DNA from: a virus
DNA length: 43,173 nt
Reading direction: 5' to 3' (one strand)
Virus record (IMG/VR): IMGVR_UViG_3300046001_007608
Span: 1 to 43,173 of that record
In this document: positions 2,319 through 17,347 of the stretch, in pieces
Layout: each line of letters starts with the position of its first letter
Position numbering within the stretch: position 1 is the stretch's first letter
Translations under genes and position numbers: made by a program
The notes under the pieces: model-generated
Databases searched by the model: none
Seen by the model: the letters and a program-made list of their open reading frames with translations, nothing else
What the model was told of the DNA's origin: nothing

Positions 2319-2870
2319 ACAAGGTGTACGTTTACTTGCATGGGTTCCGTACACGCCGAGGATGTATAAAGAAAATAGAAGTCGCCTGTTATTACCGGCA
2401 AAATGACTTCCTTAAAATGTTTGAGATGGATCGGTTTTCACCCCAAAAGGCTACCATTGGCCTCCTCCACATCACCGATTCATTGAAAACAATCTTCACC
2501 CTACTGGTTGATAACTATGCATCATGTTCAATAAAAATCCTTTGACCGGGTTTACAACGGGCGACCTCCTACAGCATCAGAAGTGATGCTTTTGTTGTTT
2601 GTAGGATATACAGTGCTAAAAAATGCGATCAGTTTTAGGATTAAGTCTTAACAGCTTCAAAAACTCATGAGACTTAATTTGGTGTCCTTCCGCCAGTATA
2701 GAGGGAGCAGGGGGTTCTGGCCTACCCAGTCCAATGACGAAAGTCGGACAACATAGGGCGCACTGGTAAAGCGATAAGGATTCTGTAGAAATACAGTTAC
2801 GGTTTCTGAAGTTAGGATTTACTTGTATTAAAGTTTCTTTAAAGAATCATGAGAAACAAAAGTAAAACCC
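2319..2870 (+). ncRNA. Large structured non-coding RNA between terminase and portal genes
   Basis: About 550 nt with no convincing gene, beginning at a strong promoter and packed with stable hairpins. By eye: 2324-2330/2348-2354 (7 bp); 2378-2383/2405-2410 with inner 2384-2386/2397-2399; 2425-2435/2474-2484 (11 contiguous pairs, three G-U) with inner 2448-2451/2460-2463; 2498-2501/2548-2551 stacked on 2506-2509/2544-2547; 2567-2573/2600-2606 stacked on 2574-2579/2584-2589; 2616-2621/2633-2638, sharing its last base G2638 with 2638-2650/2668-2680 (13 pairs with G-U); 2692-2697/2762-2767 enclosing a GAAA-capped hairpin at 2729-2749; another GAAA-capped hairpin 2783-2796; and 2833-2838/2852-2857, optionally closed by 2815-2822/2862-2869. 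Size, phage setting and ornate folding resemble the known large phage RNA classes GOLLD and ROOL, but I cannot show homology to either. Alternatives are a very long leader controlling portal translation or a processed packaging-related RNA. The 3' end is uncertain. Confidence 0.7.
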
Positions 2871-2933: not shown

Positions 2934-4598
2934 ATGACAAAACTTGTTACACCCCCAAACGCTGATTTCTTTGCTTCCTTATCAGATGATGAACTTAGAG
3001 GCATGAAGTTTTCAATGCCCTGGCAAGTTGGTTATGATGGAGGATATGAAGACAGTAAAGATGCTGATGGGTTTGACACCACAAAATCCGCAGATGGTGG
3101 AGAACTTTCAAGAGAAGAACTCCAAAGAACATGTTGGGAAAAATTCCACTTAAATCCTCAGATCAACACATCTGTTCGTGGCTTGATGGGCAGACTTACC
3201 GGAATGGGGTTTGAAACTTCCTCAGAAAATACAGAAATCAATGATGCAATCAATGAAGTTTATTATGATCACAGAAACAGGCTGTATAATTACTTTCCTA
3301 AGTTTGTAGCAAGGAGTAATATTGAAGGTGAATTGTTTTTATGCCTGACTTGTCATGATGACGGTTTTATTGAAGTTGATTTTGTAGATCCTTCCAATGT
3401 AACAGGAGGTGGTGATGAGAGTTCCGGTATTATTTTCCATCCTTCTAAACCCCTTTTTCCTCTGTATTACAACATTACTAATCCTAATGATCTCAACCCA
3501 AACAAGCAGATTGAGCAGATACCGAGTATCAATATGGCTCGTTATCCAGATCTTATTAATGTTGCCAATAAGATTGCTGCTGTCAAAGGAATTTCACGCG
3601 ATTACCAAAAAAACAGTATCAAGACAAAACGCAATCCGTGGCAAAAATTAGGATATTATTATAGATTCATTGTAGCATGGGACAAGGGGTTTATGACTCG
3701 AAGGGCTGTTTCATTTTTAAGGACAACTCTTCAATGGCTTAATCATTATGAGAATCTGAAGAAGTATGAAATCGATCATAAAAAGTCCTCAGGAAGTTAT
3801 CTGTGGACTTTTCAGTTTGAAGACGCAAGATCCTTCAAACTCTGGCTTGCTCTTACGCCGGAACAACGGGCAACCACTGGCATCATGGCAAAGAAGACTC
3901 CTGGCGGCACCCTTGTAATTCCTCCGGGCATCAAACTCGTTGCAGTGACTCCACAACTTCCGAAGATCTCAGATGGTGACACAGACATTCTTGAAATGGT
4001 TGCTTCTGGCTTAAATGAGCCGTCAGATATCATGACTGGATCATCCAAAGGCACCTTTGCGGCTGTCAAGGCATCCAGAGGTCCAATGACAGATAGGACT
4101 TCAGATGAGATTGCGTATTTCGATAGGTTTTTGAAATATGATTTTTGGAGTGCTGTGTTTTTTTTGAAAAGCCAAATCAGCAAATTCCCATCGGTGTTTA
4201 AAGTGAATGAAGCGGTGTCCTTTGATAAAAAGCAGGAACCCGTTTTTAAGACGATACCCAAAAAGCCTGAATTCCTCATTGATATATCCTACCCAATCTC
4301 TGAAAGTTCCGACACAGAAGCTCAAGCAAGGGCATTTCTTGGAGTTAAACATGGGAATATGAGCGACACACTTGGAATTCCCAATTCCTACATTGCCAAA
4401 AAGATTGGCATTGGGAGCTATGGACGGCAACGTTTGATCAAAGCAACCGAAGATGAAAAATATCCGGAATTGGTTTCTGAAGCTGATTTGGCGGCAGCAG
4501 GAATGAATCCAAATGATCCAGGAAACCAAGAAACTAATCAGGAAAAGAAGATTGTCACCCCAACAAAAAAGCTTGTAAAACCTGCGAAAAAGTCTTGA
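2934..4598 (+). CDS. Portal protein
   Basis: A 554-residue protein placed directly after the terminase and before the protease. It forms the dodecameric ring through which DNA enters the head and to which the neck binds. Portal-like features are an early helical segment with NPQINTSVRGLMGRL, an acidic wing region with WNLD-like strands (DFVDPSNV), a long central part, and the clip/crown-like PSDIMTGSSKGTFAAVKASR segment near residues 355-380. The C-terminus is Lys/Pro-rich and probably disordered. A longer frame from 2871 exists, but AGGAGAAG at 2921-2928 fixes the start at ATG 2934. Identification rests on gene order and these segments rather than one diagnostic motif. Confidence 0.82.
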   Translation: MTKLVTPPNADFFASLSDDELRGMKFSMPWQVGYDGGYEDSKDADGFDTTKSADGGELSREELQRTCWEKFHLNPQINTSVRGLMGRLTGMGFETSSENTEINDAINEVYYDHRNRLYNYFPKFVARSNIEGELFLCLTCHDDGFIEVDFVDPSNVTGGGDESSGIIFHPSKPLFPLYYNITNPNDLNPNKQIEQIPSINMARYPDLINVANKIAAVKGISRDYQKNSIKTKRNPWQKLGYYYRFIVAWDKGFMTRRAVSFLRTTLQWLNHYENLKKYEIDHKKSSGSYLWTFQFEDARSFKLWLALTPEQRATTGIMAKKTPGGTLVIPPGIKLVAVTPQLPKISDGDTDILEMVASGLNEPSDIMTGSSKGTFAAVKASRGPMTDRTSDEIAYFDRFLKYDFWSAVFFLKSQISKFPSVFKVNEAVSFDKKQEPVFKTIPKKPEFLIDISYPISESSDTEAQARAFLGVKHGNMSDTLGIPNSYIAKKIGIGSYGRQRLIKATEDEKYPELVSEADLAAAGMNPNDPGNQETNQEKKIVTPTKKLVKPAKKS

Positions 4599-4688: not shown

Positions 4689-5840
4689 ATGACTATCGAA
4701 GACAAACTTGTCCCAAAAGGGGCTATGAGATTTATTGACAAAGGATGTCAAGCCACTACCATATTTTCCAAAGGAGAAGATGGTCAGGATAGATCGCAGA
4801 TGAATATGACGGTTTATTCCGGTGGAGTGATCAAAAATCATTGGTATTGGGACGATTTACTGATTGATCTGGAAGGTATGAAGGCAGGAATGTCTAAATA
4901 CCCGGTTCTTGAAGATCATGAAACTTCCAAGAAAATTGCTTTTTCAGGGAAACCCATTGTTAAGGATGGTTCTTTGCAATTGAACCCTGAAAATGTTGTA
5001 TTTGTTGAAACGGAACATAGTAAGGAGTTTCAGACCCTTTCTAAACAGGGATTTCCATTTCAATCCAGTGTTCGTGTCAACCCCCGTAGAGTAGAACGCA
5101 TTGTTGAAGGTTCGGAAGCAATGGCGAATGGAAAAGTCCTTAAAGGACCGGCATCAATTTTCCGTGAATGGGATTATGTCGAAGGTTCTGTCTGTGTTTT
5201 TGGATGGGATTCCCAAACGTCTGCATCAGCGTTTTCGAAAGATGTCGTTCAATTCGATTATGAATTAATGTTATCAAAAACCAACGATACAAAAACCCCC
5301 TCACAGGAGGAACCACCAATTATGGATCTCGATCAGTTTAAGAAAGATCACCCCGAACTGTTTACGGAGATTGTCAAAACCGCAACAGATCAGGCCGTTG
5401 CATCTTTTGCCCAGGAGAAAACCAATTTGACCGGTATCATTGATAAACTGACCGTAACGCTTACGGAAAGTGATACTCAGATCAAGGAATTGGCAAAGAA
5501 GGATGCAATCCGGGCAGAAAAGGAAATGTTTGCCGAGGCCGAAGTTATTTGGATGACAAAACTCAGTGCCAGTGAAATTCCTGAGCGTATGTTCGCCAAG
5601 GTCAAGAAAAATGTGAGTCATAATGCATTCGTCAAGGATGATATGCTGGACAAAACTGCTTTTTCGGCAGCCGTTGATGAGGAATTGAAGGATTGGGCGG
5701 ATTTCAAATCCACTTCTACTTCAGTTCAAGGCCAGGGATTCTCTCAGAAGGACGTTGAGAGTAATACCGCAATTGTGGCGGAAAACACCAAAATAGCTGA
5801 TGCATTGTTTGCAATGGTCAGTGGTAAACCCGCGAAATAA
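4689..5840 (+). CDS. Prohead maturation protease fused to scaffold domain
   Basis: A 383-residue protein between portal and capsid genes. Residues 1-190 look like a prohead protease: a strand-rich region with PVLEDHETSKKIAFSG near 74-90, where His in DHE is a candidate catalytic residue. A later segment (residues 153-180, FREWDYVEGSVCVFGW) matches the usual EVSLV-type strand before the end of such domains. Residues 212-383 are acidic, helical and coiled-coil-like, as expected of a scaffold. The protease would self-cleave and remove scaffold during head maturation. A strong internal ribosome binding site separates the halves. The specific protease clan cannot be fixed by eye, and a catalytic Ser is not obvious. 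Confidence 0.72.
   Translation: MTIEDKLVPKGAMRFIDKGCQATTIFSKGEDGQDRSQMNMTVYSGGVIKNHWYWDDLLIDLEGMKAGMSKYPVLEDHETSKKIAFSGKPIVKDGSLQLNPENVVFVETEHSKEFQTLSKQGFPFQSSVRVNPRRVERIVEGSEAMANGKVLKGPASIFREWDYVEGSVCVFGWDSQTSASAFSKDVVQFDYELMLSKTNDTKTPSQEEPPIMDLDQFKKDHPELFTEIVKTATDQAVASFAQEKTNLTGIIDKLTVTLTESDTQIKELAKKDAIRAEKEMFAEAEVIWMTKLSASEIPERMFAKVKKNVSHNAFVKDDMLDKTAFSAAVDEELKDWADFKSTSTSVQGQGFSQKDVESNTAIVAENTKIADALFAMVSGKPAK
5305..5310 (+). promoter_or_regulatory. Internal ribosome binding site for nested scaffold start
   Basis: A consensus AGGAGG lies inside the protease frame, 11 bases before the in-frame ATG 5322. Such perfect sites are rare inside coding sequence, so it is unlikely to be accidental. 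The spacing is somewhat long. Confidence 0.6.
5322..5840 (+). CDS. Nested scaffold protein (internal start, same frame as protease)
   Basis: The ATG at 5322 is codon 212 of the protease gene, is in frame, and would give a 172-residue scaffold beginning MDLDQFKKDHPELF. The sequence is charged, largely helical and has a coiled-coil middle (QEKTNLTGIIDKLTV onward), matching the family pattern. The arrangement is like lambda C/Nu3, where scaffold is made separately from the protease fusion. It would build the interior core of the prohead and be digested later. The linker before it (residues 196-211, NDTKTPSQEEPPI) is Pro/Thr-rich, as expected for a domain junction. Confidence 0.65.
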   Translation: MDLDQFKKDHPELFTEIVKTATDQAVASFAQEKTNLTGIIDKLTVTLTESDTQIKELAKKDAIRAEKEMFAEAEVIWMTKLSASEIPERMFAKVKKNVSHNAFVKDDMLDKTAFSAAVDEELKDWADFKSTSTSVQGQGFSQKDVESNTAIVAENTKIADALFAMVSGKPAK

Positions 5841-9241: not shown

Positions 9242-11332
9242 ATGAACAAAGTTTTATTGATAGGGGAAAACCCTTCAGGTCCAACCGGAAACGGGCTTAT
9301 GATGCAAGGAATTCTCGGTCAGATTGATCCTGCAACCACAGAAGTTTTCCTTTTTTGTCCTTGTTCTGATTTTGCCCCAAATCTTTCTATTCAAAATTCC
9401 ATTCGAATTATTCCTTCAGATGATTTAAAGCGTCAAGATATATGGGGTTCTCAGAAACTCCTTACAATCTTGAGTACCAATAATCTCGATTTCATTGCTT
9501 TTATTGGAGTGGATATTTGGAGATATGTTTCTATTATCCAGAATATCAAACAAATCCAGCAGAGAAACAAATTCAAAATCATCCATTTGTTTCCTTATGA
9601 TCTTCAATACCTGGATAGGGAATTCATTCAGTATGTCAATATGATTGATATTCCTTGTGTTTATTCCCAATACGGGTTTGATATGTTGAAGGATCATGTT
9701 TCGAATTTACAGTATTTCCGTCCTTATATGCCACATAAGGAATTATTCTTTCCTTATTCTGATGAGAAACGCCAGGAAGCAAGATCAATCCTGTTTCCAA
9801 CAGTCTCTCCTGATACATTCATTTTTGGATTTATCGGTCCCAATCAGATTCGAAAAGATCCTCAGAAAGTCATTAAAGCTTTTTCAATGCTGAAGAATAT
9901 GAATCTTAAACAGAAATCTATTCTTTATATGCATACAGACTTTCGAAATGGGGTATTTAATCTTCCAAAATATGCCGCAAGTTGTGGATTAGTTAATGGA
10001 GATCTTTTGACAAAGCCGGAAGATTCCTATTCCCCGTTTGAAAAAATGCCTGATGTTTATAATGCCTTGGATTGTTTTGTGAATTGTTCTATGCAGGAAG
10101 GACTTTCATGGACAACAATTCAGGCCATGCTTTGTGGAGTGCCTGTCATTGCTTCCGATTCAACGGCACATATTGAATTGGTTAAGGGATTTGGTCAACT
10201 CTGCCCTTGTTCAAACGAATCATATATCCCAATTAAAACTGTCAATGGCAGTGCATGGATTGACGCAAAATCCTGCACATACGAGGATATATTTACGGGC
10301 ATGAAATATATGCTGAAATATAATGTTAATGCAAAGGCTTTGGCTGTAAAAGGCATTGAGAAAATGAAAAATTGGTTTGACGGCTGTTCCAATTTCAACG
10401 ACCTTACTAAAATCATGCCTGTTGAAGCTGCAAAGCCTTTGATTCCAGCAATCCTTTTTATGCAACACAGTGCTGCCGGTGATGTACTTATGACAACCCG
10501 CTGTCTGAAAAGGATACGCGAGAAACACAACAATTTACCACTCGTTTACATGACCCAAGAGAAGTTTCAGGGGATCGTGAAAGGCAATCCCGATGTCACA
10601 TTGATTGCTGATTGGAATCCTGAACTTAGAACTCAGTATCAAGTGGTCTATAATCCTCATGGAGAACATATCCTGAAAGGTGGTTTTAACAATCTGGATG
10701 TCAAACTGGCTGACATGTACCCTTATTTTTGCAAGGTGAAACCGGATGATTTCTTTATTGATTGTGAACAGCCGGACGTTTTTTTTGTTCATGATGAGCG
10801 ATTAATTGATAAATCCTTATCACCGAATCAGTATCAGTGTCCGGCACCTTATGTTGTTGTTCATACAACAGGTGGTGATCCTCAGTATCGTACTTACTCT
10901 CACATGGGTATGGTAGTTAAAGGATTGACTCTGCCAGTGGTTCAAATTGGGTCGGTAACTGATATTTATTGTCCAGGAGCAATTGATCTTCGGGGAATTC
11001 TTTCTTTTAATGAAACAGCATGGGTAATGAAAAATGCATCTGCGGCAATCGTCATTGATTCGTTTCCTGCACACTTGGCTGGTGCGCTTGACACTCCTTG
11101 TATTGTTTTGTACGGTCCTGCTCCTGCTCGTGTCGTTGGTCCTATTCATAAAGGAGTACCCGAAAATCTTTGGTTTGACATGGAACCAAATAAACTCGAT
11201 GTTTGTCCTAATATGACTAATTGCCACGGACAGATTAGAAGTTGCCAAAGTCCGTGCATTAATTCAATTAATCCTATGGAAATTAAAAAGAATCTTGTCA
11301 AAATATTGGAACAGGTAATTCCTTATGAGTGA
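9242..11332 (+). CDS. Two-domain glycosyltransferase (GT4-like plus GT9-like)
   Basis: A 696-residue fusion of two glycosyltransferase units. The N-terminal unit (about 1-390) is GT-B, GT4-like: it opens with KVLLIGENPSGPTGNG, has a FGFIGPNQIRKDP hinge near 197-209, and near 280-305 the family signature EGLSWTTIQAMLCGVPVIAS with its catalytic Glu. The C-terminal unit (about 400-696) is like GT9 heptosyltransferases: AAGDVLMTTRCLKRI at its start, VVVHTTGGD, then DSFPAHLAGALDTPCIVLYGPA. A run of Cys (CPNMTNCHG, SCQSPC) ends it. It probably transfers two different nucleotide-activated sugars. Substrate and target cannot be read. It opens a cassette inserted between neck genes. Confidence 0.85.
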   Translation: MNKVLLIGENPSGPTGNGLMMQGILGQIDPATTEVFLFCPCSDFAPNLSIQNSIRIIPSDDLKRQDIWGSQKLLTILSTNNLDFIAFIGVDIWRYVSIIQNIKQIQQRNKFKIIHLFPYDLQYLDREFIQYVNMIDIPCVYSQYGFDMLKDHVSNLQYFRPYMPHKELFFPYSDEKRQEARSILFPTVSPDTFIFGFIGPNQIRKDPQKVIKAFSMLKNMNLKQKSILYMHTDFRNGVFNLPKYAASCGLVNGDLLTKPEDSYSPFEKMPDVYNALDCFVNCSMQEGLSWTTIQAMLCGVPVIASDSTAHIELVKGFGQLCPCSNESYIPIKTVNGSAWIDAKSCTYEDIFTGMKYMLKYNVNAKALAVKGIEKMKNWFDGCSNFNDLTKIMPVEAAKPLIPAILFMQHSAAGDVLMTTRCLKRIREKHNNLPLVYMTQEKFQGIVKGNPDVTLIADWNPELRTQYQVVYNPHGEHILKGGFNNLDVKLADMYPYFCKVKPDDFFIDCEQPDVFFVHDERLIDKSLSPNQYQCPAPYVVVHTTGGDPQYRTYSHMGMVVKGLTLPVVQIGSVTDIYCPGAIDLRGILSFNETAWVMKNASAAIVIDSFPAHLAGALDTPCIVLYGPAPARVVGPIHKGVPENLWFDMEPNKLDVCPNMTNCHGQIRSCQSPCINSINPMEIKKNLVKILEQVIPYE

Positions 11333-17065: not shown

Positions 17066-17337
17066 CCATTGCCCAAACCTTCTTCCTATTTGATAAATAC
17101 CAGAGTTCCAAATATAGGGAAGATAGGTTTACTGCGGCGGTTCATGGCATTGATCTTGATAAAGAAACAGGAAATAAAAGTTCGGATGTAACTCCCACAA
17201 AGACACAGCAAAGCAATTTTATATTCGGTGATCCTACTGATTATGAGAAACTTTCTGAAGAAGAACGTGTTTCCCGAACTCAAGAGATGATGGGTAAACA
17301 TAAAGATTGGGCAGGAAATCTCAAAATAAATATATAG
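17038..17337 (+). CDS. Tail chaperone frameshift extension (gpT-like part of gpGT)
   Basis: This -1 frame is reached by slippage at 17032-17038 and is read from A17038 to TAG 17335-17337 (99 codons). With the upstream 153 codons it gives a fused protein of about 252 residues, written join(16580..17038,17038..17337). The extension has no good start codon of its own. It contains FFLFDKYQSSKYR and an acidic KLSEEERVSR helix, and ends one base before the AGGATG at the tape measure start. In lambda the extension recruits tail tube subunits while the G part binds the tape measure. Confidence 0.82.
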   Translation, partial: RKSWRNGGLTIAQTFFLFDKYQSSKYREDRFTAAVHGIDLDKETGNKSSDVTPTKTQQSNFIFGDPTDYEKLSEEERVSRTQEMMGKHKDWAGNLKINI

Positions 17338-17347
17338 GATGCCGAAT

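Follow-up and report, generated by a model that had tools for sequence, protein, structure and literature searches.

In the window (the whole 43,173-nucleotide stretch of viral DNA analysed here), the packaging genes are terL (338-2278; PHROG terminase large subunit) and a gene in the portal position (2934-4598), with a head maturation protease and then a major head protein downstream. The protein encoded at 2934-4598 is named by no family model and is taken as the probable portal from gene order and conserved linkage to TerL in ~100 relatives. A gene-free gap (2279-2933) separates the terL stop (2278) from the portal ATG (2934); it contains the portal ribosome-binding site (AGGAG, 2921-2925) and is the largest of the window. 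An earlier note, made from the sequence alone, had described a 655-base gene-free stretch opening with a perfect promoter in an otherwise gapless genome; the gap is exactly 655 bases and the promoter is present, beginning 8 bases past the terL stop, but 'gapless' is only roughly right, as the next largest gaps measure 273, 166, 102 and 99 bases. The 273-base gap (17066-17338) precedes a tape-measure-like gene of 2,465 amino acids (PF10145). Elsewhere in the window, a 696-amino-acid protein encoded inside the structural gene cluster (9242-11332) matches both glycosyltransferase group 1 and heptosyltransferase (GT9).

Relatives of the locus were collected from viral contigs by scans for TerL, portal and the RNA pattern. 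Six distinct sequences carry the element that fills the gap: the window, L002, L003, L004, L149/L257 and L005. A further four contigs (L001, L091, L092 and L094) are identical or nearly identical to the window, and a seventh sequence, present in L258/L346, is a 3' fragment only. Carriers share 66-78% TerL identity with the window, and the element lies between TerL and portal in all six. The features of the window, with the helices that the six sequences support, are as follows.

2286 to 2313, + strand: sigma-70-type promoter, TTGACA-N16-TATAAT, matching the consensus at 12 of 12 positions.
2319 to 2897, + strand: structured RNA of ~580 nt with conserved 5' and 3' ends, found in six distinct contigs plus the 3' fragment and supported by covariation.
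2324 to 2354, + strand: P1, a 5' hairpin of 7 pairs (2324-2330/2348-2354); double changes in 5 of 7 pairs, 95% of cells paired.
2337 to 2521, + strand: PK1, a long-range pseudoknot joining the P1 loop (2337-2341, 2343-2346) to 2513-2521; double changes in 5 of 9 pairs, 94% paired.
2355 to 2503, + strand: 5' variable domain, with strongly folded hairpins whose sequence cannot be aligned between homologs.
2536 to 2782, + strand: PA, the helix that closes the core domain, with 7 pairs (2536-2542/2776-2782); 100% paired across all six sequences, double changes in 6 of 7.
2549 to 2566, + strand: small hairpin with one PK2 strand in its loop; GGU/ACC, GUC/GAC, GAC/GUC and GAU/AUC occur, with two double-changed pairs.
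2558 to 2893, + strand: PK2, loop CGGGCG (2558-2563) with 3' tail CGCCCG (2888-2893); 100% paired.
2567 to 2606, + strand: PC, a hairpin with an asymmetric U-rich internal loop; double changes in 4 of 6 lower-stem pairs, apical hairpin refolded in every homolog.
2611 to 2765, + strand: closing stem of the inner multi-branch junction, the core helix CAGUGC/GCACUG (2611-2616/2760-2765); 100% paired, CAGUUC/GAACUG in L004.
2639 to 2679, + strand: PB, a 10-pair hairpin; double changes in 9 of 10 pairs.
2681 to 2705, + strand: H-type pseudoknot of S1 (2681-2684/2691-2694) and S2 (2686-2690/2701-2705); 100% paired.
2712 to 2727, + strand: Py, a hairpin (2712-2715/2724-2727) with two double-changed pairs; not alignable in L005.
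2729 to 2749, + strand: PH, a GAAA-tetraloop hairpin with three double-changed pairs; absent from L005.
2783 to 2872, + strand: 3' variable hairpins, including CUGUA-GAAA-UACAG (2783-2796); stem-loops are predicted in the homologs, with no sequence in common.
2896 to 2910, + strand: U-rich tract right after PK2, a candidate release or termination site; present in six of seven sequences and shortened in L005.

The asserted structure comprises 13 helices and 74 pairs, of which 39 are changed on both sides; 96.8% of the 432 cells are paired across the six sequences, and the covariation score is 0.51. When partners were slid by 1-3 columns, only 35-43% of cells remained paired, with 3-7 double-changed pairs and scores of 0.06-0.13. 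The structure was derived from the same six sequences, and column permutation and held-out controls were therefore added. When the aligned sequences were searched de novo for helices, PA, PB and PC, rich in compensatory changes, came out on top. Permutation of columns with relatedness kept gave a maximum helix score of 21.5, against observed scores of 39.5 (PA, the top helix) and 27.5; the third helix (19.0) taken alone falls within this null. With four sequences used for training, no more than three helices were recovered, and these were paired at 16 of 19 and 20 of 20 positions in the two sequences held out (chance, 37-40%). A 5-pair segment of PK1, whose partner strand lies ~175 nt downstream of the P1 loop, was recovered from three sequences, with three to four of the five pairs formed in the three held out. 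Among the asserted pairs, 21 cells are G-U and 3 are A-C, which identifies the + strand as the RNA strand; the minus strand has a similar folding energy and was rejected on these wobble pairs. As a whole, the 622-nt stretch is thermodynamically unremarkable (z = -1.5), so stable helices alone would not suffice for the claim, which is carried by covariation.

Support is best for P1, PK1, PA, PB, PC and the small hairpin. It is weaker for PK2 and the core helix, in each of which a single pair varies and the others are invariant, and for S1 and S2, with one or two varying pairs. PK2 has five invariant pairs and one that is G-C in three sequences and A-U in three (CAGGCG/CGCCUG); one pair of S1 varies among U-A, U-G and C-G, and S2 shows U-G to U-A. 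Altogether, two long-range pseudoknots (PK1 and PK2) tie both ends of the RNA to the core, which holds one local pseudoknot. The conserved 3' tail reads CCAGCAGA-N6-CGCCCGAAUU, and its CGCCCG forms PK2. Since this tail (2888-2893) pairs with 2558-2563, the RNA extends to at least 2893. A pairing of CUGGU (2504-2508) with GCCAG (2873-2877) was left out of the model, as L002 and L149 carry a C-to-A change without compensation.

Around this constant core the peripheral helices vary, a pattern shared with other large folded RNAs: L002 has an insertion, L005 a loss, and the 5' hairpins are unrelated. The L002 insertion (~120 nt, at ~5450-5580) lies in the PB loop and could itself form a long hairpin, an instance of natural peripheral growth. 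Because L002 adds this sequence and L005 does without PH, peripheral parts are dispensable. The 5' variable domain is more stable than shuffled sequence in the five homologs tested (z = -3.2 to -5.5), and the 3' variable hairpins have z values of -0.8 in the window and -2.3 to -3.5 in four others. In the window, a U-rich 3' strand (UUUUGUUGUUU) comes after the PC apical hairpin (2573-2600 in all), near a conserved A-rich stretch (2617-2624); a U-A triple-helix arrangement of the two is possible.

The region encodes no protein: each frame of every homolog contains 3-18 stops and no open frame is shared, which rules out a conserved reading frame. Identity of the core RNA to the window is nonetheless as high (70-79%) as that of the terL gene (67-73%). 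At gathering scores nothing in Rfam matched, and permissive Rfam scans of the window, the L257 and L005 regions and other loci gave chance-level matches only, among them sub-threshold CRISPR-DR49, snoRNA and SAM-II matches that were dismissed. The ROOL (RF03087) and GOLLD (RF02032) models each matched none of the six records at E ≤ 10, and neither family appeared in the Rfam cmscan output, for ROOL the permissive scan included; the 14 control genomes for the ROOL model were equally without a match, which leaves that negative without a positive control. Open-licence papers yielded no report of an RNA at a terL-portal locus. The element is several hundred nucleotides long and has a covariation-backed multi-branch fold, pseudoknots and no ORF, the descriptive marks of a large ornate RNA. 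On comparative sequence evidence it represents a genuine class that had not been catalogued before, within the already known general kind of large structured phage RNAs. The earlier note fares well here: the large structured RNA that it proposed is borne out by covariation in related terL-portal regions of the six carriers, its two GAAA-capped hairpins are found at 2729-2749 and 2783-2796, and its caution that membership of GOLLD or ROOL could not be shown, and that the class might be new, agrees with the model searches. The extent it gave (2319-2870) stops too early for the RNA.

The RNA was sought beyond the carriers. The next TerL relatives (≤58% identity) lack it and mostly have gaps of ~30-250 bases, and it was absent from all other terL-portal relatives examined (~100 loci). 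Looser RNA patterns reached ~170 loci, where a covariance model accepted as real only the known carriers and L149. This model, R2, covers the inner core of the RNA only and scores the six carriers at 108-201 bits; on related loci it returned nothing else convincing, and 41 whole related records held no copy at another site. L102/L118 (E = 0.014) and L144 (E = 0.034) gave weak matches limited to 50-73 bases round the search pattern, which were taken as chance. The RNA pattern had no match in prokaryote genomes. A TerL search of prokaryote genomes found one distant relative, in a Desulfobacterales metagenome-assembled genome, without the RNA, and the RNA was absent from 297 genomes of that genome's phylum in a search run without a positive control. 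Cultured phages and plasmids gave no match. As judged from these searches, the class is narrowly distributed and belongs to one narrow clade.

The TTGACA box is invariant in all six carriers, directly upstream of the RNA, and a TTGACA-type promoter occurs within a few tens of bases of the TerL stop in most relatives, whether or not they have the RNA. In every full-length carrier the RNA is thus the 5' leader of the portal operon. Whereas the earlier note's structured RNA stands, its reading needs correcting on this point, and a role in cis has to be weighed. A scan of the window found no promoter-like site downstream of the RNA and ahead of the portal gene, and the RNA is therefore probably part of the portal mRNA. 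A terminator-like hairpin inside PC (2573-2590) passed our scan in only two of the six carriers, the window and L002. Across the six carriers we found no conserved terminator hairpin with a T-run before the first gene, the mark of an intrinsic-terminator leader or attenuator, and no conserved terminator/antiterminator alternative pairing was seen.

We favour, at even odds (roughly 0.5), a reading in which the RNA works as a separate late RNA scaffold released from the transcript. The RNA begins where the promoter right after terL would start transcription, and both of its ends are locked by PK1 and PK2. Transcription would start near 2319-2320, and when the portal-capsid operon is switched on, RNA polymerase would make the RNA first, the fold forming co-transcriptionally. 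Termination or cleavage within the U-rich tract (2896-2910) would define the 3' end, at PK2 or immediately behind it, while part of transcription would run on into the portal gene. The product would be an abundant, separate RNA scaffold of late infection, as has been supposed of GOLLD and ROOL. Against release at the U-rich tract, that tract is shortened in L005. A more specific version, that PK1 and/or PK2 pair between molecules to give an RNA-only particle wired into the capsid operon in late infection, is unlikely; were it true, it would add a third, unrelated phage lineage of RNA assemblies to GOLLD and ROOL.

The strongest competitor, which we regard as a tentative but serious alternative, is a cis-acting leader that controls the entry of polymerase or ribosomes into the genes for portal and capsid, much as a very large attenuator or antitermination site would. 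The post-terL promoter is the usual portal-operon promoter in relatives with and without the RNA, the RNA sits between this promoter and the portal ribosome-binding site in six of six carriers, and neither a promoter-like site after it in the window nor a copy elsewhere in the 41 related records was found. The RNA was found only in a single operon's leader within one narrow clade, a distribution that fits a cis-acting leader as well as it fits a standalone RNA. However, relatives with the same gene order and the same promoter manage with leaders of mostly ~30-250 nt that lack the RNA, and its size, three pseudoknots and free peripheral variation go beyond the known antitermination leaders of phages. 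Lambda-type late-operon leaders and HK022 put RNAs resemble it as transcribed leaders between a late promoter and structural genes, but they are short and simple, and the RNA here lacks a terminator/antiterminator arrangement.

Three other explanations fare worse. A remnant of a self-splicing intron or mobile ribozyme would suit a slot that in relatives receives mobile cargo, HNH endonucleases included, and the RNA is big enough for a catalytic core; yet no group I or group II model of Rfam, D1D4 of group II included, matched in full or permissive scans, no gene is interrupted and the RNA was seen at a single locus only, so that we consider it very unlikely. The constant position between terL and portal hints, only superficially, at an RNA of the packaging motor that acts on the portal as phi29 pRNA does, another structured phage RNA, and the loop-mediated long-range pairings could in principle be intermolecular. 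We find this hard to credit: the ~100 relatives with homologous TerL and portal do without the RNA, so the packaging machinery needs no such molecule, unrelated cargo fills the slot in other phages, and phi29 pRNA is far smaller than this ~580-nt RNA and serves a different type of ATPase. An ordinary untranslated spacer with chance hairpins, for which the modest whole-stretch z might speak, is refuted by covariation, as well as opposed by the held-out predictions and the gene-level conservation, and its probability is negligible.

RNAs as large and complex as this one are rare, to our knowledge. ROOL forms a homo-octameric cage. Like ROOL, the present RNA comes from a phage or prophage setting, has a similar length (574 positions in the ROOL model), a complex pseudoknotted structure and a variable linker; unlike it, the RNA lies in a late-operon leader and has no model match. 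The ROOL env-120 example measures 659 nt, and ROOL often lies near tRNA islands (PMC12286853). The phage setting is shared with ROOL and GOLLD, but the window has no tRNA. GOLLD, also large, ornate and from phages, likewise has a 5' region of lower conservation; the RNA described here differs from it in being smaller, narrowly distributed, at another locus and without a model match. GOLLD expression rises in phage lysis, and kissing loops join molecules in GOLLD and ROOL particles (PMC12286853). OLE RNA, ~600 nt, highly structured and noncoding (PMC9723947), is similar in size and degree of structure but is bacterial, from Bacillota, and the RNA here matches no Rfam family. The new class, independent of and unrelated to GOLLD and ROOL, offers one more case in which to ask why phages keep large structured RNAs. 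Its position ties it to head-gene expression, so that timing and role can be tested by operon-level experiments, and the six-sequence alignment with its structure model yields concrete mutants in which PK1 and PK2 are broken and restored.

Other relatives have an empty terL-portal slot or one that holds proteins or a tRNA, in most cases downstream of a promoter of the same type. The protein cargo comprises an HNH_3/AP2 protein, a VanY-type peptidase, and DUF1353 or JAB-domain proteins. From the comparison of loci we infer that the slot takes in cargo, which in one clade is the RNA. The HNH_3/AP2 proteins, which are homing-endonuclease-like, are found in L048 (7884-8507) and L070 (4123-4635). 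Members of a more distant clade (L313, L314 and L316) have a tRNA just past the terL stop; that of L313 (3258-3362; Rfam RF00005, 49 bits, 105 nt) was missed by ARAGORN. In L054/L264, L265, L266 and L269, a near-perfect inverted repeat lies ~35-62 bases past the terL stop and is followed by T-runs. One example reads GGATAGTC-N5-GACTATCC; these repeats overlap the expected transcription start of the portal-operon promoter and may be an operator or attenuator.
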